Part shown: positions 42,068 through 59,032 of the stretch, piece after piece
How the letters are laid out: every line of letters starts with the position of its first letter
Numbering within the stretch: position 1 is the first letter of the stretch
Source: Paucihalobacter ruber
GTDB taxonomy: Bacteria > Bacteroidota > Bacteroidia > Flavobacteriales > Flavobacteriaceae
Length of the DNA stretch: 64,000 nucleotides
Assembly (NCBI RefSeq): GCF_006494535.1
Contig: NZ_VHIQ01000001.1
Span: forward strand, 560,736-624,735
Direction of reading: 5' to 3'
Made by a program: the position numbers and the translations under genes
The notes under the pieces: model-generated
Told to the model about the DNA's origin: nothing
The model's input: the letters and a program-made list of their open reading frames with translations, nothing else
Database searches by the model: none

Positions 42068-42608
42068 AGTATGGAGAAATCATCAAATAAACAATCACAC
42101 CTGTTACGGCAACGTAAAGCCAAATTGGAAACGTGATTTTTGCGATTTTTTTGTGGCGCTCAAAATTATTGGTAATAGCCCGAACGTAGGTTATTAAAAC
42201 AAAAGGAATCACAACAATAGACAATGCGATATGGGTGATTAATATGAAAAAATAAACATATCTAATAAACCCTTCACCACCGTATGGTGTACTGTCACTG
42301 GTCATATGATAAGCCACATACATCACCAAAAAAAGAACAGAGCACCCAATAGCGGTTTTGTTAAGTATTTCGTGAAGGTTTCTTTTTTGATTTTTTATTG
42401 CCCATAGCGACACCACAAGTAGAATTGCCGTGATGGCGTTAATACCGGCATAAATTGGAGGTAAAAAAGTTAAAGGTTGAACATCAAATCCTAACTTTCT
42501 CAAATTTATACCAAACAGCGCTGCAACGGCTATTGGAATAATAACCGATAAGGCTATAATTAATTTGTTATACTTTTTCTCGTTTTGTAAGTTAATATCT
42601 GTACTCAT
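42060..42608 (-). CDS. DUF420 membrane protein, cytochrome oxidase assembly
   Basis: The 182-residue protein has five hydrophobic helices and several His residues near their ends (AYHMTSD, THIALS, FERHKKIAKITFPIWLYVAVTGVIVYLM in pattern), as in DUF420. A Gram-positive member, CtaM, is needed for assembly of heme-copper oxidases. It overlaps SCO by four bases (ATGA) and the 73-residue gene by eight, so the three are tightly coupled. Confidence 0.88.
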   Translation of the reverse strand: MSTDINLQNEKKYNKLIIALSVIIPIAVAALFGINLRKLGFDVQPLTFLPPIYAGINAITAILLVVSLWAIKNQKRNLHEILNKTAIGCSVLFLVMYVAYHMTSDSTPYGGEGFIRYVYFFILITHIALSIVVIPFVLITYVRAITNNFERHKKIAKITFPIWLYVAVTGVIVYLMISPYYA

Positions 42609-43354
42609 TCTTTTAGTAGTTTAGCAATATCTTCTTTTAAAATGGTGATTTGTTGGGTCATGCCATCTTCGTCGGTTTCGTCTTCGGCTAATATGCCATT
42701 GTAGTAAATTATCGGATTTTTAAAATCGTCTAACCTAGATCTTATAAACCCGTTTTTATCAATTAAGGCAAAATTTCCTGAATGTTCAAAGCCGCCTTCT
42801 ACTTCACGGTCTTCGGCAGCATAAAGATTAAAACCCTTATTTGCTAGGGAATAAATATCTTCTTGATTCCCGGTCATTAAATGCCAGTTAGGATTGGTCA
42901 TTCCGTAGTTTTGCGCGTAGGCTTTTAAAACTTCAGGTGTGTCGTGAGTAGGATTAATGGTAAACGAGGCCACTCCAAAATTTTCAAAATCTGAAAAATG
43001 ATTTTGAATTTCAACCAAGTTTCTGTTCATTCTTGGGCAAATAGTTGGACATGTTGTAAAGAAAAATTCAACTACATAAACCTTTCCCAAATAATCTTTG
43101 TTGGTAATGGTGTCTCCATTTTGATTCACAAAACTAAAATCGGGTACCTTTCTGGCGCCTTCACCTACGTTAATAAAAGCGAGGTCTGAAGATTTTTCTC
43201 CTGTAGCTCCTTTAAGATTAGTTGATCTACTTTCGGCATCTCTACTAATGTCGTTATTTTGTAAGCGATCAACTATTTTAGGTATAAAAATTATACCGAA
43301 TAGAAGAACAATAAAGGCTATTCCTATGTACGAATAGTTTGGTTTTTTACTCAT
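42605..43354 (-). CDS. SCO family copper chaperone
   Basis: SCO/Sco1 proteins insert copper into the CuA site of oxidase subunit II. The 249 residues have an N-terminal anchor (about 9-26) and a thioredoxin-like domain with C102-X3-C106 in FTTCPTICPRMN and the ligand His191 (GGFEHSGNF). It lies between the cysteine-less SCO-like gene, with which it overlaps by eight bases, and the DUF420 gene. Confidence 0.95.
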   Translation of the reverse strand: MSKKPNYSYIGIAFIVLLFGIIFIPKIVDRLQNNDISRDAESRSTNLKGATGEKSSDLAFINVGEGARKVPDFSFVNQNGDTITNKDYLGKVYVVEFFFTTCPTICPRMNRNLVEIQNHFSDFENFGVASFTINPTHDTPEVLKAYAQNYGMTNPNWHLMTGNQEDIYSLANKGFNLYAAEDREVEGGFEHSGNFALIDKNGFIRSRLDDFKNPIIYYNGILAEDETDEDGMTQQITILKEDIAKLLKE

Positions 43355-44057
43355 TGCTTTCTTTTAAGTCGTCTGCTCTTCTAATTGAAGAATCAAAATT
43401 ACCTTTTCTTTTTTGTCTGTATTCTGTAAACAAAATGCGCATATCTTCGCTCATTTTATTTTTTATTTGAGACACTTCTAAACAATTGTATTCTACTTTG
43501 CTGTATGGATCCATGCTTTTGGCAATCTCATTTTTTTCTCTATCGTCAATTCTTCCGCGTTGGTTAAGATCTTTATCAATAATAAATGCCGATGGTGTAG
43601 CCATATAGTCATCAAGTGCCTCAGATGATTTTAAACTTTCAAACAGCTGATTGATTTGATCATCGGTACCCAACACATAATGCCAGTGTTTGAGTTCTTC
43701 GTACGCCGATATGTTATTTTTAATGTCTTCTAACTTGTCTTTTGCCTGGTTAGGTAATACAGCCACCACCTGAAAGTTTTTAAACCCTTTAAATTTGTCG
43801 TAAACCAACTCCTTAAGATTTAAAGTTGCTATCATACTTTCACTTGGGTTAGCTCCTAGAAAGGTTAAAACGGTTATTTTATCCTTAAGCTGAATGATTT
43901 GATTGTCATCACTTCTAAATCCATTCAACTCCTTAACGTTTAAGTTTACTATTTCTAAGGGATTATAATTATGAGTTGAAGGATATAAAAACAACAAAAA
44001 CATCACAGGCAAAAAGAAAAGCACTCCCAGGGTGATATTGCGTTTGATATTTTTCAT
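43347..44057 (-). CDS. membrane-anchored SCO/thioredoxin-like protein without active cysteines
   Basis: The protein has 236 residues: one N-terminal anchor (about 10-27) and a domain that follows the thioredoxin/SCO order (ITVLTFLGANPSESMIATLNLKELV, then VVAVLPNQ, then a TPSAFIIDKDLNQRGRIDDR segment). Where SCO has CPxxC this protein has ANPSES, so it cannot bind copper or do thiol chemistry in the standard way. Only one Cys (192) is present. It overlaps SCO by eight bases and is the first gene of that unit. It may be a partner subunit or chaperone. Confidence 0.75.
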   Translation of the reverse strand: MKNIKRNITLGVLFFLPVMFLLFLYPSTHNYNPLEIVNLNVKELNGFRSDDNQIIQLKDKITVLTFLGANPSESMIATLNLKELVYDKFKGFKNFQVVAVLPNQAKDKLEDIKNNISAYEELKHWHYVLGTDDQINQLFESLKSSEALDDYMATPSAFIIDKDLNQRGRIDDREKNEIAKSMDPYSKVEYNCLEVSQIKNKMSEDMRILFTEYRQKRKGNFDSSIRRADDLKESNE

Positions 44058-46161: not shown

Positions 46162-47055
46162 CTATATAAACTTGTCTATAACGTAAACTATTTGTAATAA
46201 TGTAATGTATAAAACACTAGACAGCATTAATTGTTTAGCTGCCTGAGTGCTTCGTTTTTTAAACAACTCAAATGCATAATAAAGCATTACCAATCCAAGT
46301 GCCAATACAATAATAGCAGCTACTATCGAGAGTTTTAAATCGCCGGTTATTCCAAAAGCAGGCAAAACAGAGACAATGATAGTCCAGATGGTATAGGCTA
46401 TAATTTGTAAAGCTGTGCCTTTATCTTGCTTTTTGGTTGGTAACATTAAAAATCCACCTTTTTTATAATCGTCATAAAGTAACCAACCAATAGCCCAAAA
46501 GTGTGGAAACTGCCAAAAAAATTGTAAAGCAAACAAAGTTCCCGGTTCAATACCAAACTGGTCTCTTGCGGCAACCCAACCCAACATAAAAGGAATAGCT
46601 CCCGGAATGGCACCAACAAATACAGCAAATGGGGTTTTGGTTTTTAAGGGTGTGTAAACACTGGTATATAAAAAAATGCTAATTGCGCCATACATGGCGG
46701 TTCTTGGGTTGATAATGTAAAGAGCTATAATACCTAAAACCGTAAATGTAACAGCAATAGTAAAGGCAGTAGACACTTGCATTCTACCTGCAGGAATGGG
46801 ACGATTTTTAGTGCGATTCATAAGCGCGTCTAAATCTCGTTCAATAATTTGATTATAGGCGTTAGATGCGCCTACCATAAAGTAGCCGCCAAAACACAAC
46901 AGGATAATTGTAGTTATATCAATTGAATAAGCGCCTAAAAGATAACCCGCCACAGACGAAAAAACCACACTCAATGACAATCTCATCTTTGTGATTTCTT
47001 TGAAATCAGAAACTATGTTACTTAAAGTTAATGGGTGTTTTGCGGTACTCAACAT
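46162..47055 (-). CDS. cyoE: protoheme IX farnesyltransferase (heme O synthase)
   Basis: This UbiA-family prenyltransferase adds farnesyl to heme b to make heme O, the precursor of heme A for oxidases. The 297-residue protein has the two Asp motifs of the family: NAYNQIIERDLDALMNRTKNRPIP, and the later DDYKKGGF loop. It has about nine membrane helices. It is the first gene of the oxidase operon, with a good promoter directly upstream. Confidence 0.96.
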   Translation of the reverse strand: MLSTAKHPLTLSNIVSDFKEITKMRLSLSVVFSSVAGYLLGAYSIDITTIILLCFGGYFMVGASNAYNQIIERDLDALMNRTKNRPIPAGRMQVSTAFTIAVTFTVLGIIALYIINPRTAMYGAISIFLYTSVYTPLKTKTPFAVFVGAIPGAIPFMLGWVAARDQFGIEPGTLFALQFFWQFPHFWAIGWLLYDDYKKGGFLMLPTKKQDKGTALQIIAYTIWTIIVSVLPAFGITGDLKLSIVAAIIVLALGLVMLYYAFELFKKRSTQAAKQLMLSSVLYITLLQIVYVIDKFI

Positions 47056-47131: not shown

Positions 47132-49255
47132 TTAAAAGTCAATATGCCAATTAAATAAATCGGTTCTTAGACCAACTGTAAACCAAACGGTGTTGCTTCT
47201 TAATGTGGTAGTTGTTTCTTGAAGCGGATCAAAATTTCGATAACTTATATTAGTGAAAAGTCTCAAGTTACTAGACGGATTCAAAATATATCCTGCCTGT
47301 AACTCGCCATGAAAAACTGAAGTGGTATTACCTTGTGCTACTTTGATGTTGGTGTCGCCAATACGCTCTTGTTCCCTTCTATAAATGTTACCTCCGTAGT
47401 TGAAATTATTATCGTCTGTATTAAAATCAAAGCCGCGTTCACCTAAAATAAATTTAACATCGGCAAACCATCTTTCATAATTATACCTACCTATTAAAAT
47501 GGCTTCTCTAAAATTGGCGCCCCATAAATGTGCCATGGGTTGATTGTTATGCGCATAGTTGAGCACAATGGTGTTATGAGAGTATGTGTAAGGTCTTACC
47601 TGATTGAATTCAAACTGAAGCAGCAGGTTATCAACCTTAAAAGCATTGTAGTATTTAACACCCAACTGATAACCAAATTTATTTTTCCAGCTTTGATTTC
47701 CTGCAGTTACATCGTCTAAAGAAAACTCATCTAAGATAAACTGTCCGTAAGCATTTACTGCATTACTAAACTTATACTTACCAGAAAGTCCTATCAAAGC
47801 ATTACCTGCGGCTTGCCCGGTGGCAAACTCTATCGCTCGATAAAAAATTATTGGGTTTAAATAGTTAATGTCAAAACCTCTACCATTGCTATTATCCCAG
47901 ATTACAGATTCAAAAACACCTAAATTAAGACGTTTTGAAACATTCCAGCTTAAATAATGATTGGCCATATATTTTCCCAAAAAAGCACCGTCAACTACAA
48001 CTTCGGGCCTTACATCGTTTAACCACATCCAGGTATTTGTGTATTTAATCTTCCAAAAGGACGTGTTTAATTTTAAAAACGGATGTGGACTAGACACATC
48101 GCTTAACAATAAAGATCTGTAGCCATCACCTATAAAATTTTTCCCGTATCCAAACTGAACATTCAAAAAATTAGCCGGCGAATAAGACAAGTAAGCCTCC
48201 GCAACAGGATAATCATAGGCCGAAGTTTTAAATCGTTTGGCAATGCCTCTGCCGGGAATTATGGCCGGATCAGGACCAAAACCTCTCAAACTTTCGGCGT
48301 ATTCATTAAAATATTGTGCAAACCGACCTTGACTTTCAAAAACCGAGGTATAAAAGTTAAACTTTTTACCCAAACCACCTTGAATTAAGAGCCCGCGCGT
48401 ATTATTAAAGGTAGAACTAAAATCGGCTTCGGTATCTTTGCCAACTTGTAAGTCAAAAATTGGATCGATGGTAAACCAATAATCTTCACCTTGTACTTGT
48501 ACCAGATTTTCATTCCAGAATTTACGCCCTAACCATGTTGATTTTTCTTTGGCCAAAGCCGTTCTTTCGGCTTCGATATTGTAATATGGCTGCACATCGG
48601 CAAATAAAAATGGTTTTGAAGCTGTGTGACTATTGGTGCCAATAGCGTTCATATTAGCATCAAACCTTGCGTAATAACTATGCGTAAAAGGAATATTTAA
48701 TTGACTCGATGTTTGTAAACTTTGATACGGTACCAGGCTGTCATTAACTGCTTCAAACTCCTTTAAGCTTTCAGGATTTATATTGTAATATTGTTTGATA
48801 TCCTGAGTTTCATTTGTTAATTCAGCCCCTCCAGCAATTTGTGATGGCAGTTCATTTTCAAAAGGTATATTAATAACAATAGAATATTGATAAAATGTTG
48901 GTTTACCGTTATATCGCCCGGGTTGAACCGGTGGCAGGTTTTCAAATACTCTTTTGGCTTCTGTTTTTAATTCATCATAAATGGCATCTGCATAGATAAA
49001 TTTAAAGGCGCCTTCTTTGTCTACTTCAAATAATACTTTTACGTCTCCCTTGTAATTATTTTGTTGAACAGCTTCAGGTACTACAAAATTTTCTTTTATT
49101 TGTTGAAGTAATTGCTGCTTAAAGCATTTTTTTAACTGCGTAAAATCGACTTTTTGACAAGCTTCAAAAATCGGCGGTTGTTCTAAACTTTCAATATTTT
49201 GGGCAAAAAGCACACTTTGAAAAAACATTAAAGAAACTAATAGATACTTTGTCAT
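47132..49255 (-). CDS. remB: RemB-like gliding motility outer-membrane protein with TonB-like N-terminal domain
   Basis: The 707-residue protein has a signal peptide (about 1-18), then at about 25-132 a domain that follows the TonB C-terminal fold: a two-cysteine start (ACQ...KKCF), NNYKGDVKVLFEVDKEGAF, VFENLPPVQPGRYNGKP. The rest looks like an outer-membrane barrel with many aromatic strands, ending WHIDF. The name RemB rests on pattern, length and position: as I recall, F. johnsoniae has sprA, then remB four genes later, with gcvH, vanZ and tonB between, as here. RemB is needed for gliding there. The two genes upstream encode TonB proteins with the same C-terminal domain. Confidence 0.65.
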   Translation of the reverse strand: MTKYLLVSLMFFQSVLFAQNIESLEQPPIFEACQKVDFTQLKKCFKQQLLQQIKENFVVPEAVQQNNYKGDVKVLFEVDKEGAFKFIYADAIYDELKTEAKRVFENLPPVQPGRYNGKPTFYQYSIVINIPFENELPSQIAGGAELTNETQDIKQYYNINPESLKEFEAVNDSLVPYQSLQTSSQLNIPFTHSYYARFDANMNAIGTNSHTASKPFLFADVQPYYNIEAERTALAKEKSTWLGRKFWNENLVQVQGEDYWFTIDPIFDLQVGKDTEADFSSTFNNTRGLLIQGGLGKKFNFYTSVFESQGRFAQYFNEYAESLRGFGPDPAIIPGRGIAKRFKTSAYDYPVAEAYLSYSPANFLNVQFGYGKNFIGDGYRSLLLSDVSSPHPFLKLNTSFWKIKYTNTWMWLNDVRPEVVVDGAFLGKYMANHYLSWNVSKRLNLGVFESVIWDNSNGRGFDINYLNPIIFYRAIEFATGQAAGNALIGLSGKYKFSNAVNAYGQFILDEFSLDDVTAGNQSWKNKFGYQLGVKYYNAFKVDNLLLQFEFNQVRPYTYSHNTIVLNYAHNNQPMAHLWGANFREAILIGRYNYERWFADVKFILGERGFDFNTDDNNFNYGGNIYRREQERIGDTNIKVAQGNTTSVFHGELQAGYILNPSSNLRLFTNISYRNFDPLQETTTTLRSNTVWFTVGLRTDLFNWHIDF

Positions 49256-49352
49256 TTATCTCAAGCATTGAAAACGGCTGAAAGATACCATTTTTTCAAA
49301 ACTCTAACAGATAAATTTGAAAAATTGAGTTGTTAAAGCTTTACAATTCAAA

Positions 49353-50111
49353 CTAATTTATCACAAACTTAATTGGCAAGGCATACTTAACATTTACCGG
49401 TTTGCCGTTGTGTTTTCCCGGAGTCATCATTGGAACTTTATTTAATACCCTGATAGTTTCTTTCTCTAAAGCCGGGTGTGGTGCTCTTGTTTCTATTTCA
49501 ACCACATTACCATTATTGTCTATTTTAAATTGAACACCAATTACTTGTTTTCCGTTTAATCCGTAGTCTTGAGCTAAATTGGTGTTGAAATTCTTTTGAA
49601 TAATTTTATGTATGTTATCCGACAAACATTTTCGTTGTTCTTCATTGGTTTGAAGGTGCTCACATCCCGGAAATACCGGCACTTTTTCAACCATAATTAT
49701 GGACATATCCTCAGGAGGTAAAACAACATGAATATCGCCGGGTTTTAATTCTTCACCATTATCTATAGGTTGGTTTTCAATTACCGATTCTCCTTGAGCA
49801 GTATCGTCGATGGCATTCACAGATGTCGTTAAAACTCTGGATTTATTTGGTTTGGGTTTTGGAGCCTCTACAATAGGCTCTATATAAACTTTAAATGGTT
49901 CGGTTGGTAATTCAAAATTGTCATCGGTTACTTTAGCGAGATTATTTTCTGAAATAATAGTTGAGCTTAATGAAAATTCAAAGGCAAAATAGGCCGTTAG
50001 TAAACAAATTATCAATCCAATTTGGAAGTAAACTATACTGCTTTTGTTAAGATTTAAATCATTCTTTTTTGAAGATGATTTAGCGGTTTTCGAGGAATTT
50101 GGTGTTATCAT
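49353..50111 (-). CDS. energy transducer TonB
   Basis: The 252-residue protein has a Lys-rich cytoplasmic start, one membrane helix (about 28-50), a Pro/Lys linker (EAPKPKPNK) and a C-terminal TonB domain (about 140-252) with a conserved Cys pair (FPGCEHL and RKCLSDN) and the TonB box-binding end VNVKYALPIKFVIN. It would pass proton-motive energy to outer-membrane receptors. A -7 element stands between it and the terminator of the upstream tonB gene, so it can be transcribed alone. No ExbB/ExbD genes are nearby. Confidence 0.93.
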   Translation of the reverse strand: MITPNSSKTAKSSSKKNDLNLNKSSIVYFQIGLIICLLTAYFAFEFSLSSTIISENNLAKVTDDNFELPTEPFKVYIEPIVEAPKPKPNKSRVLTTSVNAIDDTAQGESVIENQPIDNGEELKPGDIHVVLPPEDMSIIMVEKVPVFPGCEHLQTNEEQRKCLSDNIHKIIQKNFNTNLAQDYGLNGKQVIGVQFKIDNNGNVVEIETRAPHPALEKETIRVLNKVPMMTPGKHNGKPVNVKYALPIKFVIN

Positions 50112-50148
50112 AATATTGAAGATTAATAGATTATTAAATCAATACCAA

Positions 50149-50156
50149 CAAACGTA
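50149..50156 (-). promoter_or_regulatory. TAnnTTTG -7 element for the second tonB gene
   Basis: The reverse strand reads TACGTTTG, 37 bases before the ATG at 50111 and just past the upstream terminator. The place of a -33 element is taken by the terminator stem. Confidence 0.45.
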
Positions 50157-50162
50157 CCAAAA

Positions 50163-50193
50163 TAAAAAAGGGTCGTTTAAAACGACCCTTTAA
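50163..50193 (-). terminator. terminator between the two tonB genes
   Basis: AAAGGGTCGTTT and AAACGACCCTTT pair almost end to end, and the reverse strand then has six T. It is 20 bases past the stop of the gene at 50213. Confidence 0.92.
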
Positions 50194-50212
50194 TTTATCT
50201 TTTAAATAAAAT

Positions 50213-50935
50213 TTAATCTTGAACCTGGAAGATAATAGGTAAAGAGTATTGTACAGTTACAGACTTACCACGCTGTTTTCCGGGTTGCATCTGAGGAAGT
50301 TTACTAATTACTCTTGCTGCCTCTCTTTCTAACCCGGGATGCGGAGCTCTTGACTTAACGTCGGTGATATTACCGTTTTTGTCAATTTTAAAAATCACAC
50401 TAATTCTTTGACGACCAGATAATCCCAAATCACCAGCTAACTCAGTATTGAAGTTTTTATTTACATGTTGAGTTATCTTTTCAGACATACATTGTTTTTT
50501 GGCCTCATTTCCACTTTTATTCTCACAACCGGGAAAAACAGGTACATTTTCAATAACTGCGAAAGGTACCTCGATGTCTTCTTCTACTTCCTCAACAACC
50601 ACATCTTGTACTTCTACAATTTTAGTATCCATTTCTGTTTCAGTAGACTCAATTATTGTTTCTTCAATTTCCTCGTCATCGTCAACCACTTCAATTTCTT
50701 CGGGAGCTGCCGGTGGGGGTGGCGGTGGCGGTGGTGTTTGAATTTGCTCGGTTAATGGAATTTCTTCTTCAATTTCATCACCTAAATCTAACAAACCAAT
50801 ATCAATACCAGATTTATCGTAAGTTTTGAAATTAATTGCGCCATACGTTAATAATAACACAATTGTTAGGCCAACAGCGAAATAGAGTGCGCTGTTTCTA
50901 CCAATGTCGGCTTTTGGATTTTTTTTCGGCTCCAT
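50213..50935 (-). CDS. energy transducer TonB, proline- and glutamate-rich linker
   Basis: The protein has 240 residues with a membrane helix at about 17-34, eight consecutive Pro at 68-75, a strongly acidic linker (about 79-125) and a C-terminal TonB domain with the same Cys pair (FPGCENK and KQCMSEK) as the neighbouring gene. The C-terminal domains of the two proteins are very similar, but the linkers are not: this one is acidic, the other mixed. It therefore looks like an old tandem duplication in which the periplasmic linker has changed. Confidence 0.94.
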   Translation of the reverse strand: MEPKKNPKADIGRNSALYFAVGLTIVLLLTYGAINFKTYDKSGIDIGLLDLGDEIEEEIPLTEQIQTPPPPPPPPAAPEEIEVVDDDEEIEETIIESTETEMDTKIVEVQDVVVEEVEEDIEVPFAVIENVPVFPGCENKSGNEAKKQCMSEKITQHVNKNFNTELAGDLGLSGRQRISVIFKIDKNGNITDVKSRAPHPGLEREAARVISKLPQMQPGKQRGKSVTVQYSLPIIFQVQD

Positions 50936-50999: not shown

Positions 51000-51383
51000 T
51001 TAATTTAACTTCAATTTATATAGACCCCTGACTAGGAAATATCCTATAATTACGCCTATACCATTTGCAAAAATATCGAAGATATCAAAGGTTCTATCGG
51101 TATTCAATACTTTTTGAAGTACTTCAAGAACTGTGCCGTAAGCAAAGCTAACTATCATTGCTATCCAAACAGCACTTTTAACATTGGCTTTTTGTAGAAA
51201 ATTAAACAATACAATAACAAAAACCGTATAAGCCAGGGCATGAAAAATTTTGTCATCATGACCGGTATTAATCTCGGGTAAATTATGCAGTGAAACTAGG
51301 CTTAAAACAGTAATTAGAACTACATAACATATTAATAAAGGTAAAGCAAAACGACTAAGCGTTGATAATAGCTTTGTAATCAT
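51000..51383 (-). CDS. VanZ-family membrane protein
   Basis: The 127-residue protein has four helices and the VanZ pattern DKIFHALAYTVFVIVLFNF with a later FAYGTVLEVLQ and DIFANGIGVIIGYF. VanZ of Gram-positive bacteria gives low-level teicoplanin resistance; members in Bacteroidota have no known role. Its start overlaps the end of gcvH by 29 bases, so the two are co-transcribed. Confidence 0.9.
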   Translation of the reverse strand: MITKLLSTLSRFALPLLICYVVLITVLSLVSLHNLPEINTGHDDKIFHALAYTVFVIVLFNFLQKANVKSAVWIAMIVSFAYGTVLEVLQKVLNTDRTFDIFDIFANGIGVIIGYFLVRGLYKLKLN

Positions 51384-51735
51384 CAGCGCTAAGCAAATTA
51401 TCTATTTCTGAGCTATCTGAGAACTTCAGTTTTACCATCCAGCCTTCGCCGTACGGATCTGTATTTACCTTTTCAGGCTCGTCTTGTAAAGCTTCGTTAA
51501 ATTCTATTATTTCACCAGATAAAGGCAAGAATAAATCCGAAACTGTCTTTACTGCTTCAACGGTTCCAAAAACATCTTCGGCATCTAATGTTTCATCTAC
51601 AGTTTCAACTTCAACATAGACAATATCTCCCAATTCGCTTTGAGCAAAATCGGTGATACCAATAATTGCAATGTCTCCTTCAATTTTTACCCACTCGTGG
51701 TCTTTAGTGTACTTTAAATCTGATGGTACTTTCAT
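51355..51735 (-). CDS. gcvH: glycine cleavage system H protein
   Basis: The H protein carries the lipoyl arm between the other enzymes of glycine cleavage. The 126 residues have the expected fold, with lipoyl-acceptor Lys63 in VEAVKTVSDL and a start reading YTKDHEWVKIEGDIAIIGITDFAQ. No gcvP or gcvT is in the window. It has its own promoter match and overlaps vanZ at its end. Confidence 0.97.
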   Translation of the reverse strand: MKVPSDLKYTKDHEWVKIEGDIAIIGITDFAQSELGDIVYVEVETVDETLDAEDVFGTVEAVKTVSDLFLPLSGEIIEFNEALQDEPEKVNTDPYGEGWMVKLKFSDSSEIDNLLSADDYKAIINA

Positions 51736-51796: not shown

Positions 51797-54700
51797 TTAA
51801 TTGCCAAAATTATATCGTAAAGTGAATCCGGTTCTAATAGAGGTTTGCGGAAATGCCGTAGAAATAGCAAAATCTGAGAACGCATAATCAAAATAGAAAA
51901 TAGCCGTGAGATATTTACTAAAAGCATAATCTGCTGTATACTTCACATTCCAGATGGTTTGACCTGCGGTTACCTGACTATTGGTAACATCTAAAGGCCT
52001 AATAATTGTTTTGTTGTCTCTTACAGAAATATCGGCTCTCATGTTTAAATCGCTCTTAACTACTTGTTGTGGACCCGCAATTTTTGAGCGTATGCGTACG
52101 TCTTTAAATCTGTAACCCAAACCTAAGGTGTATTCTTGCCCTTGAATCTCGGTGAGTAAATTATTATCGAAACTAAGTGATAAAATGCGGTCGCGTTTGA
52201 TTTCTGCTAAAATTTTTACCGAATTTTTCATTTCCATGTCTAAACGCATCAAGGGACTAAAAGATTCTTCTAAGTTAATATTACTTAATAATGTTTGATT
52301 TTTAAAATCACCGTTCTGGTTAAGCGCCTCGATGCTTTGCTCACTATATTCTGCGCCTAACTCAGGTGCGACATAATCTAAGTTAGCTCTAAATTGATTA
52401 ATGGTATAAGATGAACGATAGCCATGATTCACAGAAAATCTTCTAAAGTTATCTTTAAACCACTTAATACGCATAAAACCGGTGTATTTGATATTCCAGT
52501 TAGGCAATGGAAAGTTTCTGAAAGCATCGGCGCTAATACTTTCAGGGTTTGAACCTTGATAAGCAGCTAAAAACGCAGGCAACAGCACGCGCTGACTATT
52601 TTTGCTAAACCCAAGCGGAAAGCCGTCCGCATCGGTTGCAAAGTTATTGGTGCCGTAAAACTCGCGCGCTAATCTATTGGCTACTGTAAGTCGATTTGCT
52701 CTAAACGTTTGAAAGGTTTCTGAATTAAATTCGTCGCTCTTTTTAAAAGCGGTACCAATCATAATGGTAGAGATATTAAAGTTCCCGAAAGAATTTCTAA
52801 TTAAAGAATTATACTCTAATTGGCCGTCACCACTAATATCTTCCACTCTAAAATTTTCGGAATTGTTTTCTGCGTATATTCTTCCGCCGGTAACATCAAT
52901 GGTGAAATCTGTTAAAGGTTGCACACTTGCAGAGTAATCTAATTGTTTGTTGGCAACTTCGGTGTACTGCTGGTTAAAATCAGGAAAAACCGTGAGCCAG
53001 CCATTGCGTGCGGCCAGTTGCCGTATGTCTCTCTGAGCCCCGAAGGTGTAACCAAGCGTGGGTTTTAAAGTTCCTACAATTCCGGGAGTTCTTAAGTATC
53101 CCGGCAAAAATGTACCATTATTTTCTGAGTAATTAACCTGAACACGTTTTACCATGGTTACAATATCAACTACGGTATTGAAAACAGCACTGGGTTTTTT
53201 AGGTGGTTTTTGTTGATCTTCTGGTGTTTGACCGGCTCTTGAAGTTTGAGGCATACCCGGCTGCGACAAACGATTGTCTCGCTGAGCGGCTCGAGGTGAT
53301 TTTTTTACCAAGCCTAAATACCTGTAAAGAGTTTCCATATTTAAGGTGGTATTTAGGTTGTGGGTATTAGCATTTTGTATCGAATTTCCTAAATCAAAGG
53401 TAGATACCGTTCCGTTCGGGTTTGTTATTTCTAAATTCGAATTGATATCAGAGCCTTTGGTCCATTGGAAATTTCCGGTGTAGGCATAAGTTGACCTTAT
53501 AAACCCAAGGGTTGGTATTTTGTTTAAGGGTAATTCGTAATTAAGCTGAAGTTGTTGATTTTGAATATTCGGATCTCCTAAATCAAAGAAATCGTCCCAA
53601 ACATTCAAAGATGGATCTTGCCTACCGTTAATTCGGTCATCAATAAAATAATTTCTTACAATGTTACTGTTATTAGCTGTGAAGTTAAGGTTGAGTGCAT
53701 CGGTAATATTGTAATTTAACACATATTGCATATTGAAATTGTAGTTTCGCCGGAAGAGTTCTTCAATGCCTATATTATCGCCACCTAATTCAACTTCTCT
53801 AAATTTTTGCCTGCTAAACTGCCTAATAAAATCAGTGTTGACAGAAAAACTGGTTGGCAACAAATTAAAGTTAAAGTCTTTTAATATTTTTAAATATTTA
53901 CTTCTAAAAAGTGAATCATTCTTTTTAAAGGGTTCTATTTTAACAGGGTTAAAACTAAAGTTGTAGTTAACACCTGCTCGAATATTTTGATCTAACGAAT
54001 TTTCTATTTCAAAATCTCTAAACTCGACTTTATTGTAAGAGTAATTGAAGGTTAAGTTTTCAACATCGTAAAATCTTGGAGTGGCTTCGCCGGTTCTCAA
54101 TTTTCTAACACCTATAAAATTAATACTCTTTCGTTTTGTATACGATTCATTAACGTTGAGAATAGAATCTCTGTTATTGGTGTTGTTTAATTGTGTTTCT
54201 AATCTGATATCTCTGTAAAATTCGTCGAACTCGGGTGTTACAATTTCCTCGGCAACCGCGTAGTTAAATGGCAATTGAATACCCCATTTTTTTGGTAACA
54301 ACTGCCCAAGATTCATGTTAGTAACAAGATCGTATTGCGAAATATCTTCCCGGCTACGTTCATTTGGTTTTTGTTCTAGTGATCCAAATCCTGATGTACT
54401 GCGTCTGCCTGTTGCACTAATGTTTGCAAAATCAGCCACGTTCGAATCCAAGCTTACTATACCGGCCCAACCACCACGGCTATCTATTTCAGACAGTCTT
54501 AACTCATTAAACCATACTTCTCCACAAACATCCATACCGGTTTGCCCGGGGTTTTTTAGTCCCAACATTAAAACCCTAATATCTCCAAAATTAGGATTTC
54601 CTTTAATGGCTATTCTTTGTTGTCCGGGCGTATGCGGATCAAATTGGTTAACTTCTACCAATCCGCTTGGCGTTACATCATACCATGTTGGTTCTAAATT

Positions 54701-57700
54701 GCTCAGTGTACCATTGGCAATACCTCTTGACTTAATTTCTTGTAAAGCGCTGAGTTGTATATTAATTTCGTTGACCCATACTTCTTCGGGGCTGGAACCG
54801 TTGTTGACTTCCAACGGTAGTTCAACCTGATAGAAGTTTTCGGTAAAATCGTTACCCATTCTAATAAAAGCTACCATATCGCCACTCGATAGCCTTCCTG
54901 ATTCACCATCTTTAGCGTGTAAAAACATGCGCATTTTTTTATATTGCCGCATGTCGAGATTTACATTTTTAAAAACACCACGAGAATCCTCAGGCTCCAA
55001 ATCGCACACTTGAAGCACTAAAGACTGTTCGTTTTGTCTTACAATAGTGTTATTATTGTTTAGTCTTTCTCTTACAACGCCAGGCGGAGATACATATGTA
55101 CCGTCGTTTTCCTGAATGCCGATAACTCCAATATTAAATGCAGTATTGTCGTTATCATTGTTAGGTTCGTCATCAAGAGACAATCGGTATCTTCGCCAGT
55201 CGCTTCTCACCAAATCTAAAGTTGCAAACCTTAAGGTGGTTACTTCATTAAAATCTGTTAGATACATTCTGGCAAATCGAATAGACCTGATATCGGCAAT
55301 ACCACCAACAGCATTAGTTGCTTCAGAAATTGGAATTCTAAACTGATACCATCTCACTTCCCGGGTATCGCCGTTTGGCAATGTAATATTCCTGACTTTT
55401 AAATCGTTAATTTGTGGATTAGCAGTACTTAAAGTGTTTGGTGTGATAGGTATTTCGTATTCAAAATAACTATCAATAGTGTTCATGGTATTGTCTCGGT
55501 TGATGTCTTCAGCATCGGGCTGTGGTGCCGCGCCACGATTGAAATTTGAAAACTCCGACGGCGAATTTCCTTCTACTCCGTTGTATCTTTTATAGCGTTC
55601 AAAGATGTTTCCTGTAGTATTTAAATAAAACTCGTAATTATCATTAGCCGGGTCTGAGCCAAAATCGCCTGTAATACCTAGCGTGCTTAACATGGCCTGT
55701 TCTTCTTGATCGTTATAACCATCATATCCAACATCCTGGTTTATTCTTTCCTGACCGGTAGAAGAAAAGGTGTAAATTAAAGATTGTGCTTGCGGCACAA
55801 CGTAAGGATTTGCAACAGACAAACTTCCTTGCAAAAAGGAAATATCGCCATTTTCAGGCAAACCGTTTTCGTACATTTTCTTTCCGTCCTTTAATATATC
55901 TTCTGATATATTTCCTAGGTTGAAAGTTAAGGTACCACCTGTACTTGCCGGATTGTCTAAAAACGGATCTTGTAACCAAAACTCAATAAACTCAACGTTG
56001 GCTTGTTCAAAATCGGTAGTATTAATAGCTCTTGAAATTCCTGCCCAGCTTTGGTTAGGATTTAATGATGTATTGTTGGCTGCCTGAGGATCAAAATTAT
56101 AAGGACCTCTTTCGGTTGGATAATAGGTTAAATCTAAGGTGTTCGTAACACTTGTTTGACCTTGTACAATGTCAATTTCAGGGAAAATTTCTTCAATAAA
56201 TACACGTCTGGTGTAGAGATTAGACACATCGTCGTTGGTGACACCCTCTGGTCTTTGAGCGCCGTAAAAAATAGGGTCGATGGTGTACCAGTTCATTAAG
56301 GCTCTGCCATAGCCATTGGTTAAACCATTCACATCATTAGCGGTGCTTCCAAATAGATTAACAGGTCTGGAAGACAAAAACCAAGACAACGGATTTTTTA
56401 AATCGATAGCACCTTGAGTACCTTCAAAATCATCTATATACGAGGTAGCTTCACCATCAAAATCGGTACCTTTTGGTGCTCCGGGTGCCAGGTAAGCAAA
56501 TTCACCTCTTATCGAAAGGTTTGATGGTACATCGGTATCTATATTTGGCAATTTATTGACCATCCTTGTTAAAAACGGCACTTCAGTAGAATAGTTCCCA
56601 TTGAAGCCAAAAATGCTGTTACTTACAGATTCCTGATTAAAGTCGGCCTTTTGAGTAATAGGTCTTTCGGTTAAATTTAGGAACGTTGCGCCCAGAACAA
56701 AATTTTCATTAAACTCATGGTCTACATGAAAACCTGCAAATCTTCGGGTTTGTTGACCAAAAACCGCATTATTTTCAACCGATACGTTAATTGGCGTATT
56801 TGAAGCCTTAAGTGCTTCATCTAAAATATTAACACGACCCAACTGATAATCTACGGTATAATCAATTCCTTCAACCAGTGTTCTACCACCGGCAGTTACA
56901 ACAACCGAACCACGCGGAACATTAAATGCGCCCAGCGGAATACCACCACCGCCGGCAGATTGAAACCTTCCTTTGATAAGGAATTTATTTTTTTCAGCCT
57001 CATCTAAGGCTGCTATTTTAGTAGATTTATAAAGAATGTCGTAAACGTATTTGCTTTGGTTAGGATTGAAGTTGCCGGTCTCGTAATCAACATTGTTGTT
57101 TCCCGGGTTGCCGTCATCGTCTAAAATATCGAATAGATATTTACCAAATGGTTCTACTTTAGTAAAAATAATTTTACCGTTTTGAGACAATACCGTTAAC
57201 CCTTCTACGTAATCAAAAAATCCATCGCCTTGTTCTTGAGGATCGTTGTTAAAATTTAACCTGTCTAAATGAAATAACCTGATTAATGGTGTTTCGGTAA
57301 TTTCACTGTCGTCATTAGGGTTATTGGGTGTATTATTCTGAAAAATTGGGAATGTTGTACCTTCTACGGGTCTTATATAATTAAGAGGTGATGCTTCGTT
57401 ATAAAAAATATTAAGTCTAAAGTCTTCTCTCTCTAATTGAAAAGCACCGGTGTCGTAAACGTTTTTCATCATTAAATCCCAAACAGGCAAATCAACAACA
57501 GTGACTGCACTTTTCAGCATCTTTAACACCAAAGCATTATTGGTAATATTTTGTGTATTGTTTGTATTGTCAACTACATCTGAAGCATTCACACCGTCAT
57601 TGGCAAACTCACCAACCTGATACACCTGGCCTCCAACCGTATATTGAAAAGCCACTGCCAAAACCTCATCGTTTAACAATCGCTGATTTAATGAAATATA

Positions 57701-59032
57701 TCCCAGACGTTGGTTTAAAAAATATTCGGTGCCTTCTCTAAGTTTTCTGGCGCTTTCCATTTTACCGTAATCAAAACCTTCGTTTACAGGCACTAAAACA
57801 CCATTTTCAGTTGCTGTGATATCTCTTACTTGTTGAGTTAAAAGTGAGCCGGCACCACCAATGTTGGTGGGATCAAAATCATTATTTTTATTATCGGGAA
57901 ATGCACCTTGACCGACATTAACAAAACCTCCGGGTGGGTTGGGTAACCCAATAATATCAGATTCTCCCAAATCCTGAAATGCCACAATATTTCTTACGTT
58001 TTCTGTAGCATTATTCCGGTTGGTAACCCAAACTTCTATTCTGGTTATTTGAATGTTATTATTAATAAACGGATAGCGAAGCATGGCCTCGTCATAATTA
58101 TTTCTGAAATATTGCGCTAAGAAAAAGTGCCGGTTTTCGTCGTAATTCTGACCAAAAAATTCAAACTCTTCAAGTGTGCCACCGCCTTGGGCTACTACCG
58201 ATGAAGATTGGGATTGTTGTTCAGAGAAAACTGCAGTAATACGGGTTTTCCCAAATTGTAATTCTGTTTTTACACCAAACAAACTTTGGGCCCCTCGAAT
58301 AAGCGAACTATTGAGCGGCATATTGACGTTACCAACTTCAATTTTTCTGATAATATCATCTTCGGTTGGGGTGTATTCCAACTTGATAAGATTTTGAAAG
58401 TCGAACGTTGACTGTGTGTCGTAATTGGCGGTTACCTGCAGGCGTGTTCCAACCTTACCAAGCAAACTCAAGCTGATACGCTGATTAAAGTCGAAAGTGA
58501 AATTACTTCGGTTTTGTGGCGAAAAATTAGGATTATCTTGTTGGGTAAACAAGACTCCTAAATCAACTTCAACCGAACCTTGCGGAATGACTTCAATAGT
58601 ATCTCCACCAAACAAGGTTTGGAAAAAACCTGAGTTGATATAAAAGTTAGGCAGCAGGTTTTTCTGTTCTTCCTCTGTACCTTCCTTTTGTCCGGCCTGT
58701 GCATCAATTTTTTGCTTGTAGTAAGAACGTATTTGCTCCTTTTGCACTAGTTTTTCAAACTCGGCCGGCGTTAAAAACAGAGGATAATTGATATTAAATT
58801 CGCCTACCTTCTGTCTGTAAACGTACATGTTTGTTAGGGGATCATAAGTATACCTTGATATGATACTATTGGGATCTTTTAAAATAATTTTTCCGGTGTT
58901 GTAACCGGTGGCTGTAGAATCGCGCTCAGGCTCTCTTTCCTGAGAGAAAACAACAGATGATGCAAGTAACAAGCTTATTACTAACAGCTTAAAAACGATG
59001 TATTTTAGATTTGTATAGTTGGTTGCGATCAA
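51797..59032 (-). CDS. sprA: SprA, outer-membrane translocon of type IX secretion
   Basis: SprA is the giant barrel through which type IX substrates cross the outer membrane, and it is required for gliding in F. johnsoniae. The 2411-residue protein has a signal peptide (about 1-30, cut after VVFSQ), family segments such as NRSNFTFDFNQRISLSLLGKVG and EIEVGNVNMPLNSSLI-type strands, repeated DDFEGT and LDLVRSDWRRY parts, and barrel strands ending RTGFTLRYNFGN. The length is in the usual range of 2300-2500. It begins 5 bases after the ruvA stop and is probably read from the ruvA promoter. Confidence 0.96.
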   Translation of the reverse strand: MIATNYTNLKYIVFKLLVISLLLASSVVFSQEREPERDSTATGYNTGKIILKDPNSIISRYTYDPLTNMYVYRQKVGEFNINYPLFLTPAEFEKLVQKEQIRSYYKQKIDAQAGQKEGTEEEQKNLLPNFYINSGFFQTLFGGDTIEVIPQGSVEVDLGVLFTQQDNPNFSPQNRSNFTFDFNQRISLSLLGKVGTRLQVTANYDTQSTFDFQNLIKLEYTPTEDDIIRKIEVGNVNMPLNSSLIRGAQSLFGVKTELQFGKTRITAVFSEQQSQSSSVVAQGGGTLEEFEFFGQNYDENRHFFLAQYFRNNYDEAMLRYPFINNNIQITRIEVWVTNRNNATENVRNIVAFQDLGESDIIGLPNPPGGFVNVGQGAFPDNKNNDFDPTNIGGAGSLLTQQVRDITATENGVLVPVNEGFDYGKMESARKLREGTEYFLNQRLGYISLNQRLLNDEVLAVAFQYTVGGQVYQVGEFANDGVNASDVVDNTNNTQNITNNALVLKMLKSAVTVVDLPVWDLMMKNVYDTGAFQLEREDFRLNIFYNEASPLNYIRPVEGTTFPIFQNNTPNNPNDDSEITETPLIRLFHLDRLNFNNDPQEQGDGFFDYVEGLTVLSQNGKIIFTKVEPFGKYLFDILDDDGNPGNNNVDYETGNFNPNQSKYVYDILYKSTKIAALDEAEKNKFLIKGRFQSAGGGGIPLGAFNVPRGSVVVTAGGRTLVEGIDYTVDYQLGRVNILDEALKASNTPINVSVENNAVFGQQTRRFAGFHVDHEFNENFVLGATFLNLTERPITQKADFNQESVSNSIFGFNGNYSTEVPFLTRMVNKLPNIDTDVPSNLSIRGEFAYLAPGAPKGTDFDGEATSYIDDFEGTQGAIDLKNPLSWFLSSRPVNLFGSTANDVNGLTNGYGRALMNWYTIDPIFYGAQRPEGVTNDDVSNLYTRRVFIEEIFPEIDIVQGQTSVTNTLDLTYYPTERGPYNFDPQAANNTSLNPNQSWAGISRAINTTDFEQANVEFIEFWLQDPFLDNPASTGGTLTFNLGNISEDILKDGKKMYENGLPENGDISFLQGSLSVANPYVVPQAQSLIYTFSSTGQERINQDVGYDGYNDQEEQAMLSTLGITGDFGSDPANDNYEFYLNTTGNIFERYKRYNGVEGNSPSEFSNFNRGAAPQPDAEDINRDNTMNTIDSYFEYEIPITPNTLSTANPQINDLKVRNITLPNGDTREVRWYQFRIPISEATNAVGGIADIRSIRFARMYLTDFNEVTTLRFATLDLVRSDWRRYRLSLDDEPNNDNDNTAFNIGVIGIQENDGTYVSPPGVVRERLNNNNTIVRQNEQSLVLQVCDLEPEDSRGVFKNVNLDMRQYKKMRMFLHAKDGESGRLSSGDMVAFIRMGNDFTENFYQVELPLEVNNGSSPEEVWVNEINIQLSALQEIKSRGIANGTLSNLEPTWYDVTPSGLVEVNQFDPHTPGQQRIAIKGNPNFGDIRVLMLGLKNPGQTGMDVCGEVWFNELRLSEIDSRGGWAGIVSLDSNVADFANISATGRRSTSGFGSLEQKPNERSREDISQYDLVTNMNLGQLLPKKWGIQLPFNYAVAEEIVTPEFDEFYRDIRLETQLNNTNNRDSILNVNESYTKRKSINFIGVRKLRTGEATPRFYDVENLTFNYSYNKVEFRDFEIENSLDQNIRAGVNYNFSFNPVKIEPFKKNDSLFRSKYLKILKDFNFNLLPTSFSVNTDFIRQFSRQKFREVELGGDNIGIEELFRRNYNFNMQYVLNYNITDALNLNFTANNSNIVRNYFIDDRINGRQDPSLNVWDDFFDLGDPNIQNQQLQLNYELPLNKIPTLGFIRSTYAYTGNFQWTKGSDINSNLEITNPNGTVSTFDLGNSIQNANTHNLNTTLNMETLYRYLGLVKKSPRAAQRDNRLSQPGMPQTSRAGQTPEDQQKPPKKPSAVFNTVVDIVTMVKRVQVNYSENNGTFLPGYLRTPGIVGTLKPTLGYTFGAQRDIRQLAARNGWLTVFPDFNQQYTEVANKQLDYSASVQPLTDFTIDVTGGRIYAENNSENFRVEDISGDGQLEYNSLIRNSFGNFNISTIMIGTAFKKSDEFNSETFQTFRANRLTVANRLAREFYGTNNFATDADGFPLGFSKNSQRVLLPAFLAAYQGSNPESISADAFRNFPLPNWNIKYTGFMRIKWFKDNFRRFSVNHGYRSSYTINQFRANLDYVAPELGAEYSEQSIEALNQNGDFKNQTLLSNINLEESFSPLMRLDMEMKNSVKILAEIKRDRILSLSFDNNLLTEIQGQEYTLGLGYRFKDVRIRSKIAGPQQVVKSDLNMRADISVRDNKTIIRPLDVTNSQVTAGQTIWNVKYTADYAFSKYLTAIFYFDYAFSDFAISTAFPQTSIRTGFTLRYNFGN

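Follow-up and report, generated by a model that had tools for sequence, protein, structure and literature searches.

Background

According to the available part of the literature, Wzi forms a barrel of 18 strands, has a bundle of helices at its N-terminus and is important in capsule anchoring at the cell surface (PMC9601211). Two outer-membrane proteins, SprF and PorG, are described in the accessible part of another study as disulfide-linked to Cys343 of GldK (PMC12635249). In those published tables that were available, remB is listed as adhesin-like without an "essential" mark, type IX secretion of RemA/RemB is mentioned, and, by locus number, remB is only a few genes away from sprA in Flavobacterium johnsoniae, F. 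suncheonense and two Gramella species. Here, we consider a RemB-like protein of Paucihalobacter ruber, encoded in a 64,000-nt stretch of contig NZ_VHIQ01000001.1 (positions 560,736-624,735; hereafter the window, to whose positions the coordinates of Table 1 refer). The first-pass annotation had placed three neighbouring genes (remB, tonB-b and tonB-a) at 47132-50935, which is exact, all three being on the minus strand, and had proposed that they share a TonB C-terminal-like domain, fused in RemB to an outer-membrane barrel. As putative roles of the RemB domain, it had suggested binding to a receptor plug or TonB box, competition with TonB, or a connection of gliding to TonB. The results presented below make it very probable that RemB consists of a TonB_C domain and a Wzi-like barrel, and the fusion was most likely gained once, in Flavobacteriaceae.

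A TonB C-terminal domain at the N-terminus of RemB

The homology of the domain common to the three genes is confirmed by both profile comparison and fold. A RemB profile built from 81 RemB domains was compared by hhalign with the profiles of the two neighbouring TonB domains, which resulted in probabilities of 99.2 (E 2.9e-18) and 99.1 (E 5.6e-18), while the control profiles of gcvH, vanZ and cyoE scored 0.0 and six column-shuffled profiles scored at most 0.1. Pfam TonB_C (PF03544) was clear in the two neighbouring TonBs (40.6 and 42.8 bits). In RemB, it reached 19.6 bits for the whole protein and 23.5 bits for the domain alone against a cut-off of 24.6, and separate scoring of the place of the domain gave 24.3, or 24.8 with its neighbours in frame. 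When homologous RemB domains were scanned singly, 39 of the 41 matched TonB_C at E<=0.1, the best at 1.3e-6.

Structure prediction, which had been suggested as a check in the first-pass annotation, produced the TonB C-terminal fold and not a different one. The domain alone was modelled from 41 sequences with a predicted local distance difference test (pLDDT) score of 95-98 in the core, and the best 15 rows of a Foldseek search against the PDB were all TonB or FusB C-terminal domains, headed by the chain of a TonB in complex with the receptor FoxA (E 4.6e-4, the sole row below 0.001). VIA placed 6i97 chain D first, with a modest Z of 8.3 over 88 residues at 2.6 Å; its top 20 rows were all TonB, TolA or FusB, and later rows had Z <5. 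Sequence searches of solved structures returned no TonB and only chance-like rows with the RemB domain alignment, and zero rows with the full-length RemB alignment; a mixed domain alignment had as its best row HasB (E 0.15), which we take to be a TonB homologue. Since the sequence of the RemB domain does not match solved TonBs, the link to TonB rests on profiles and fold: the likeness to the known TonB C-terminal domain (PF03544; PDB 6i97 chain D, 5lw8, 2gsk) is one of fold and of sequence homology through flavobacterial TonB profiles.

RemB itself is not a TonB protein, because its signal peptide leads directly into the domain (as judged by eye), without the inner-membrane helix and Pro-rich spacer of TonB; the domain is N-terminal and is followed by a linker and then the barrel. 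The architecture proposed in the first-pass annotation, with the domain behind the signal peptide, not anchored in the inner membrane and joined to an outer-membrane barrel, is thus supported. Residue Q19, the last of the predicted signal peptide, was invariant in 15/15 aligned sequences.

The shared motifs noted earlier do occur in order in all three proteins, although the spacing of the two cysteines is 11-12 residues (C33/C44 in RemB, C150/C162 in TonB-b and C137/C149 in TonB-a) and not about 15, and the P-QPG(K/R)-GKP end is exact in RemB only (PPVQPGRYNGKP), the corresponding end being PMMTPGKHNGKP in TonB-b and PQMQPGKQRGKS in TonB-a. Residues 33 and 44 are the only cysteines of the RemB-like protein of the window. 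The pair was present in 81/81 RemBs, 70/70 tonB-a and 72/72 tonB-b domains aligned (72 tonB genes per position, from which short ones and one tonB-b lacking PG had been removed; window copies included), and because it occurs throughout all three groups, it has the appearance of a disulfide with a structural role in this family of domains. None of the 80 RemB homologues had a cysteine after the pair; 58 had exactly two, and the remaining 22 had one to three extra, before the pair, in the start region. Among 20 deeper family loci, the pair was recognized by pattern in 18 and by eye in L139, while in L142 it was cut by the start rule used. In RemB, mean column conservation was highest for the barrel (0.839), followed by the helical part (0.754), the domain (0.665) and the linker (0.345); judged by the contrast with the linker, the domain is under constraint at the level of sequence.

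A Wzi-like barrel

Another important question is what kind of barrel the domain is attached to. In a low-confidence model of full-length RemB, helices occupy residues 153-247 and are followed by 18 strands of at least nine residues between residues 259 and 697. Among 350,542 chains searched with Foldseek, the best match of the barrel was Wzi (2ynk, E 8.3e-6), the next being the alginate exporter AlgE. VIA likewise placed Wzi first (Z 15.2, 357 residues, model residues 185-700).

One additional piece of evidence was provided by homologues that consist of the barrel only. Five of the ten scanned (L115, L123, L124, L126 and L127), which had been found with RemB at E values of 6.4e-92 to 4.2e-35, pass the Pfam cut-off for Wzi. 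RemB thus resembles Wzi (PF14052; PDB 2ynk), a capsule-anchoring lectin, in that Wzi is the best fold match, a helical segment precedes the barrel in the low-confidence model and some homologues from its family score above the Pfam cut-off; it differs in its extra TonB_C domain, and its lectin activity is only putative. The Wzi-like nature of the barrel is new here and was absent from the first-pass annotation.

Neighbouring genes of the barrel-only homologues were also inspected (18 neighbours scanned in 13 of the 18 loci). Polysaccharide or nucleotide-sugar genes lay within two genes of the homologue in 4/13 loci (L114, L124, L126 and L127), and a SIS-domain gene was found nearby in L119. 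The other neighbours were ATP-binding cassette transporters (three loci), a peptidase, a receptor-like barrel, a type IX cargo-like protein, a sensor kinase, or proteins with no match. Within the family, a hexapeptide acyltransferase gene recognized by Pfam stands directly before a remB with the fused domain in L030 (885-1460), and a gene of similar appearance, judged by eye, occupies the same place in L027 (893-1465); both are in line with a polysaccharide role.

Distribution and origin of the fusion

To follow the fusion through the family, we surveyed 199 genomes, mostly one per genus, with rows counted by hand. Full-length RemB including the domain was found in 115/199, and in four more it was split across contigs with the domain also shown, so that the fusion was kept in 119 of the 120 genomes in which the start of RemB could be judged. 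The remaining genomes are G516, which has a barrel-only copy with no tonB within the 15 kb fetched, G567, which has a C-terminal piece only, and 78/199 without a barrel match. The domain is therefore present in close RemB homologues, which had been named as a further check, its absence from them being what would have counted against the earlier proposal. In L138 (3612-8865; genome 88% complete), all that is seen of remB is a C-terminal piece of 152 residues, separated from tonB by about 4 kb, which may reflect decay or interruption of the gene. In L106 and L141 there are three tonB genes in a row.

Outside the family, the situation is different. Among the matches listed for 395 genomes of the phylum, those to the barrel that lie beyond the family start at RemB residue 178 or later, and hmmsearch found no TonB_C-like domain in any of the 18 barrel homologues fetched from there. 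Among the matches listed for 198 genomes of the class, strong matches to the RemB domain in frames of about 700 residues occurred only within the family (six genomes); the next matches were mostly TonB-sized frames, and some frames of about 500-850 residues were left outside this reading.

In a tree of 82 domains, the RemB domains form one group (37 tips, support 99), from which it follows that the fusion most likely happened once. On this sequence evidence, the fusion is most likely a single gain in Flavobacteriaceae that is old and has been kept. The tonB-b domains lie inside the tonB-a group, as local duplicates of tonB-a. The tree gives no support to an origin of the RemB domain in the adjacent tonB, the RemB group being nested in neither tonB-a nor tonB-b. 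Its nearest neighbour is a lipoprotein-like domain (support 94), which, standing on a long branch, is possibly an artefact and is not trusted as the donor.

TonB_C domains were also encountered in other protein contexts. On contig 17 of the same P. ruber genome, a 613-residue M56 peptidase-family protein (L134, 1-1842) ends in a TonB_C domain with the Cys pair according to Pfam; two genes beyond it, a 162-residue protein that appears lipoprotein-like by eye (L136, 1357-1845) carries a diverged TonB_C copy, which Pfam does not detect. In L129 (5688-6773) and L130 (5745-6830), a 361-residue protein with a signal peptide (by eye) has two TonB_C domains in tandem; its gene adjoins another TonB_C gene, and no barrel match for these two genomes is among the matches listed.

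Gene neighbourhood

The features of the window are presented in Table 1. Among the genes searched, tonB was the nearest upstream gene in 78 of the 80 close loci, 7-504 bp from remB, and sprA was upstream in 71. Of the two exceptions for tonB, L036 starts too near remB for a judgement, and L097, which contains a close homologue of RemB, has no tonB, gcvH or sprA within 10 kb upstream, which points to relocation of remB or to a rearrangement of the region. In the 20 deeper family loci, the block includes tonB in 18, sprA in 18 and a gene that we take to be deoC-like in nine; L139 and L140 keep the RemB domain, with no tonB found in the block.

Table 1 Features of the P. ruber window around remB
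Feature	Position	Strand	Details and basis
cyoE, haem o synthase	46162..47055	-	TIGR01473; downstream neighbour
remB-like gene, 707 residues	47132..49255	-	predicted signal peptide, TonB_C-like domain, linker, Wzi-like predicted outer-membrane barrel
RemB beta-barrel, residues 250-707	47135..48508	-	C-terminal Phe, Wzi-like; low-confidence model
RemB helical segment, residues 180-249	48509..48718	-	at the position of the Wzi N-terminal helical bundle; model, conservation
RemB variable linker, residues 138-178	48722..48844	-	partly low confidence; conservation 0.345, pLDDT
RemB TonB C-terminal-like domain, residues 26-134	48854..49180	-	profile, fold and Pfam evidence
RemB Cys44 codon	49124-49126	-	inside TonB_C-like domain
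RemB Cys33 codon	49157-49159	-	inside TonB_C-like domain
RemB predicted signal peptide, residues 1-19	49199..49255	-	without lipobox; read by eye
tonB-b, 252 residues	49353..50111	-	N-terminal membrane helix (by eye); C-terminal domain ~49356-49694
Intrinsic-terminator-like stem, 11 bp	50167..50191	-	between tonB-a and tonB-b
tonB-a, 240 residues	50213..50935	-	N-terminal membrane helix (by eye); C-terminal domain ~50216-50557
vanZ-like gene	51000-51383	-	between sprA and tonB-a; family match
gcvH	51355-51735	-	between sprA and tonB-a; family match
sprA, type IX secretion translocon	51797..59032	-	TIGR04189, 2742.6 bits; conserved upstream neighbour

The corresponding stretch was then compared in 20 chosen genomes out of the approximately 78 family genomes without RemB. 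All 20 keep gcvH and tonB, 17 keep vanZ and 19 keep cyoE, and remB was not found in the stretch in any of them. It is tonB-a that stays in 20/20, with tonB-b also in 6/20. The gap between tonB and cyoE is at most 526 bp in 13, 1.0-1.2 kb in four and about 3 kb in two. An obligate pairing of tonB with remB was rejected, as tonB is kept in all of these RemB-less genomes.

Terminator-like stems were found between tonB-a and tonB-b in 43/73 loci (2/730 shuffled gaps) and between tonB-b and remB in 28/73 loci, a count without a shuffled control, whereas the gap from remB to cyoE had none in 0/32 loci with such a stem. The gap from tonB-b to remB in the window itself showed no such site. Given the stems upstream of them, tonB-b and remB may be transcribed apart from sprA, and remB may often be off the sprA transcript and partly off the tonB transcript.

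Elsewhere in the window (42605-44057), an SCO1/SenC gene carries a CxxxC motif (CPTIC); the gene that follows looks similar, lacks the motif and has no Pfam match at 1e-5.

RemB, gliding and type IX secretion

The window RemB resembles RemB of F. johnsoniae (Fjoh_1657) in its place in the genome, a few locus numbers from sprA (Fjoh_1653) in the available tables; this is a likeness by position. The statement in the first-pass annotation that RemB is required for gliding is stronger than what those tables give. Neither Pfam nor NCBIfam detected a type IX sorting domain in RemB at E<=1, which, together with the barrel architecture, speaks against labelling RemB as type IX cargo; the architecture of the window RemB thus does not support the type IX-secreted adhesin of the available published label.

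GldJ was matched in 197 of the 199 family genomes at E 0.001, a number that may include related proteins, and in 190 over the cut-off; G474 (88% complete) has a full-length RemB and no GldJ match. Since GldJ is nearly universal in the family, its co-occurrence with RemB cannot discriminate a gliding link. Moreover, as tonB is kept in 20/20 sampled RemB-less genomes and gldJ is nearly universal, neither pairing with RemB is obligatory, and the persistence of tonB without remB, and of gldJ with or without RemB, weakens the ideas that couple RemB to Ton or gliding machinery.

Possible role of RemB and alternatives

The data suggest, as a plausible although tentative reading, that RemB is a Wzi-like barrel that holds polysaccharide at the surface and carries a TonB-type docking domain in the periplasm. 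The barrel, with about 18 strands and the helical segment at its periplasmic end, would hold or anchor surface polysaccharide. The TonB C-terminal domain, probably gained once in Flavobacteriaceae between the signal peptide and the barrel, would extend into the periplasm on a flexible linker and serve for passive docking, a topology that we infer from the architecture. Similarly to the TonB C-terminal domain, it could offer an edge strand to the extended peptide of a partner (a TonB-box-like or linker strand), although docking by strand addition is put forward more cautiously than the reading as a whole, and binding of a TonB box by RemB is only putative. Such docking would tether the polysaccharide-holding barrel to periplasmic or outer-membrane machinery, and the Cys pair would form the structural disulfide of the domain family.

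Several results weigh against this reading. The full-length RemB model is weak (pLDDT 63.7, predicted template modelling score 0.53), and the VIA Z of Wzi is tied with those of TOM40 barrels, although Wzi is aligned over more residues (357 against about 250). RemB itself has no match to Pfam Caps_assemb_Wzi (PF14052) at E<=1, which is why it is named Wzi-like and not Wzi; of the other barrel-only homologues scanned, L128 is under the Wzi cut-off and four have no Wzi match. In 9/13 barrel-only loci, the scanned neighbours give no clear polysaccharide role. In the domain, the aligned PG column is PG in only 28/81 RemBs and PA in 50/81, compared with PG in 70/70 tonB-a and 72/72 tonB-b domains (more fairly 71/72 for the latter, given the PG-less copy removed beforehand); since PG occurs in all 142 aligned TonB domains, ligand contacts may differ in RemB. 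The RemB domain also evolves faster than the barrel (0.665 versus 0.839), and no docking partner was identified for it.

Among the alternatives, the domain may be a structural anchor that binds peptidoglycan or aids folding of the barrel, unconnected to Ton or gliding machinery. This would fit the independence of RemB from the distribution of tonB and gldJ, and TonB_C-type proteins without an obvious TonB role do exist (the 162-, 613- and 361-residue proteins described above). However, the 18/18 barrel homologues outside the family that lack the domain indicate that barrel folding does not in general depend on it, and we regard this explanation as unlikely.

Another possibility, which we consider improbable, is a pairing between the RemB domain and the C-terminal domain of a neighbouring TonB, through which ExbBD-TonB would pull on the barrel to load, release or move surface polysaccharide. 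The proximity of the genes (tonB nearest upstream at 7-504 bp in 78/80 close loci and in the block in 18/20 deeper ones) and the tonB-b-remB gap of the window, in which no terminator-like site was found, speak for it, but tonB-a (and tonB-b in 6/20) stays in all 20 sampled genomes that lack RemB, a terminator-like stem parts tonB from remB in 28/73 loci (again without a shuffled control), the RemB domain is retained in L139 and L140 although no tonB was found in their blocks, and the 10 kb before remB in L097 lack a tonB.

A more general version, a Wzi-like lectin barrel that the TonB-type domain links to a proton-driven machine, by pairing with the C-terminal domain of TonB, by strand addition or by disulfide exchange with the GldK track, seems quite improbable to us. 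If it were true, surface polysaccharide would be gripped, moved or released by periplasmic force, and the output of the Ton or gliding machinery would then differ from both import and a protein adhesin.

There is even less to recommend the proposal that the Cys pair acts as the donor in a disulfide exchange with GldK, with RemB and its polysaccharide riding the gliding track, which we consider very improbable. A precedent is published in the SprF and PorG disulfides to GldK Cys343 (PMC12635249, in the part available), both proteins being located in the outer membrane, belonging to the same machinery and phylum and having conserved cysteines in the periplasm; in addition, the RemB locus is linked to sprA, the pair is found in 81/81 RemBs, and none of 80/80 has a cysteine after it. 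On the other hand, the same pair occurs in all 142 aligned TonB domains and so looks structural across the family of domains, and RemB lacks the C-tail Cys-X-Cys motif of SprF and PorG: in the F. johnsoniae proteins this motif lies in a C-terminal tail according to the available text, while the RemB pair is inside a TonB_C domain common to TonBs. Furthermore, 78/199 family genomes have no RemB barrel match, yet GldJ is over the cut-off in 190/199, and the terms RemB and TonB are absent from the main text of PMC12635249 as far as it was available.

Finally, the view that the shared motifs are convergent or due to chance and that the RemB domain is not TonB-like can hardly be maintained, because the sub-cut-off TonB_C score of RemB alone and the failure of sequence searches to find a solved TonB, which would favour it, are contradicted by the profile comparison, the confident model, the Foldseek and VIA fold matches, and the TonB_C matches of 39/41 homologues.

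Conclusions

TonB C-terminal domains and Wzi-like barrels are each known, and in the open-licence literature covered we found neither a TonB domain nor a Wzi-like character, nor their fusion, described for RemB, although absence from print is not thereby established. TonB C-terminal domains appear here as a general module, attached to a barrel, to an M56 peptidase-family protein and to a lipoprotein-like protein, and arranged in tandem. For RemB, the combination of a Wzi-like barrel and a TonB-type domain replaces the "adhesin-like" label with testable predictions: polysaccharide would be bound outside, a docking partner would be found inside, and the domain with its Cys pair could be removed without touching the barrel.

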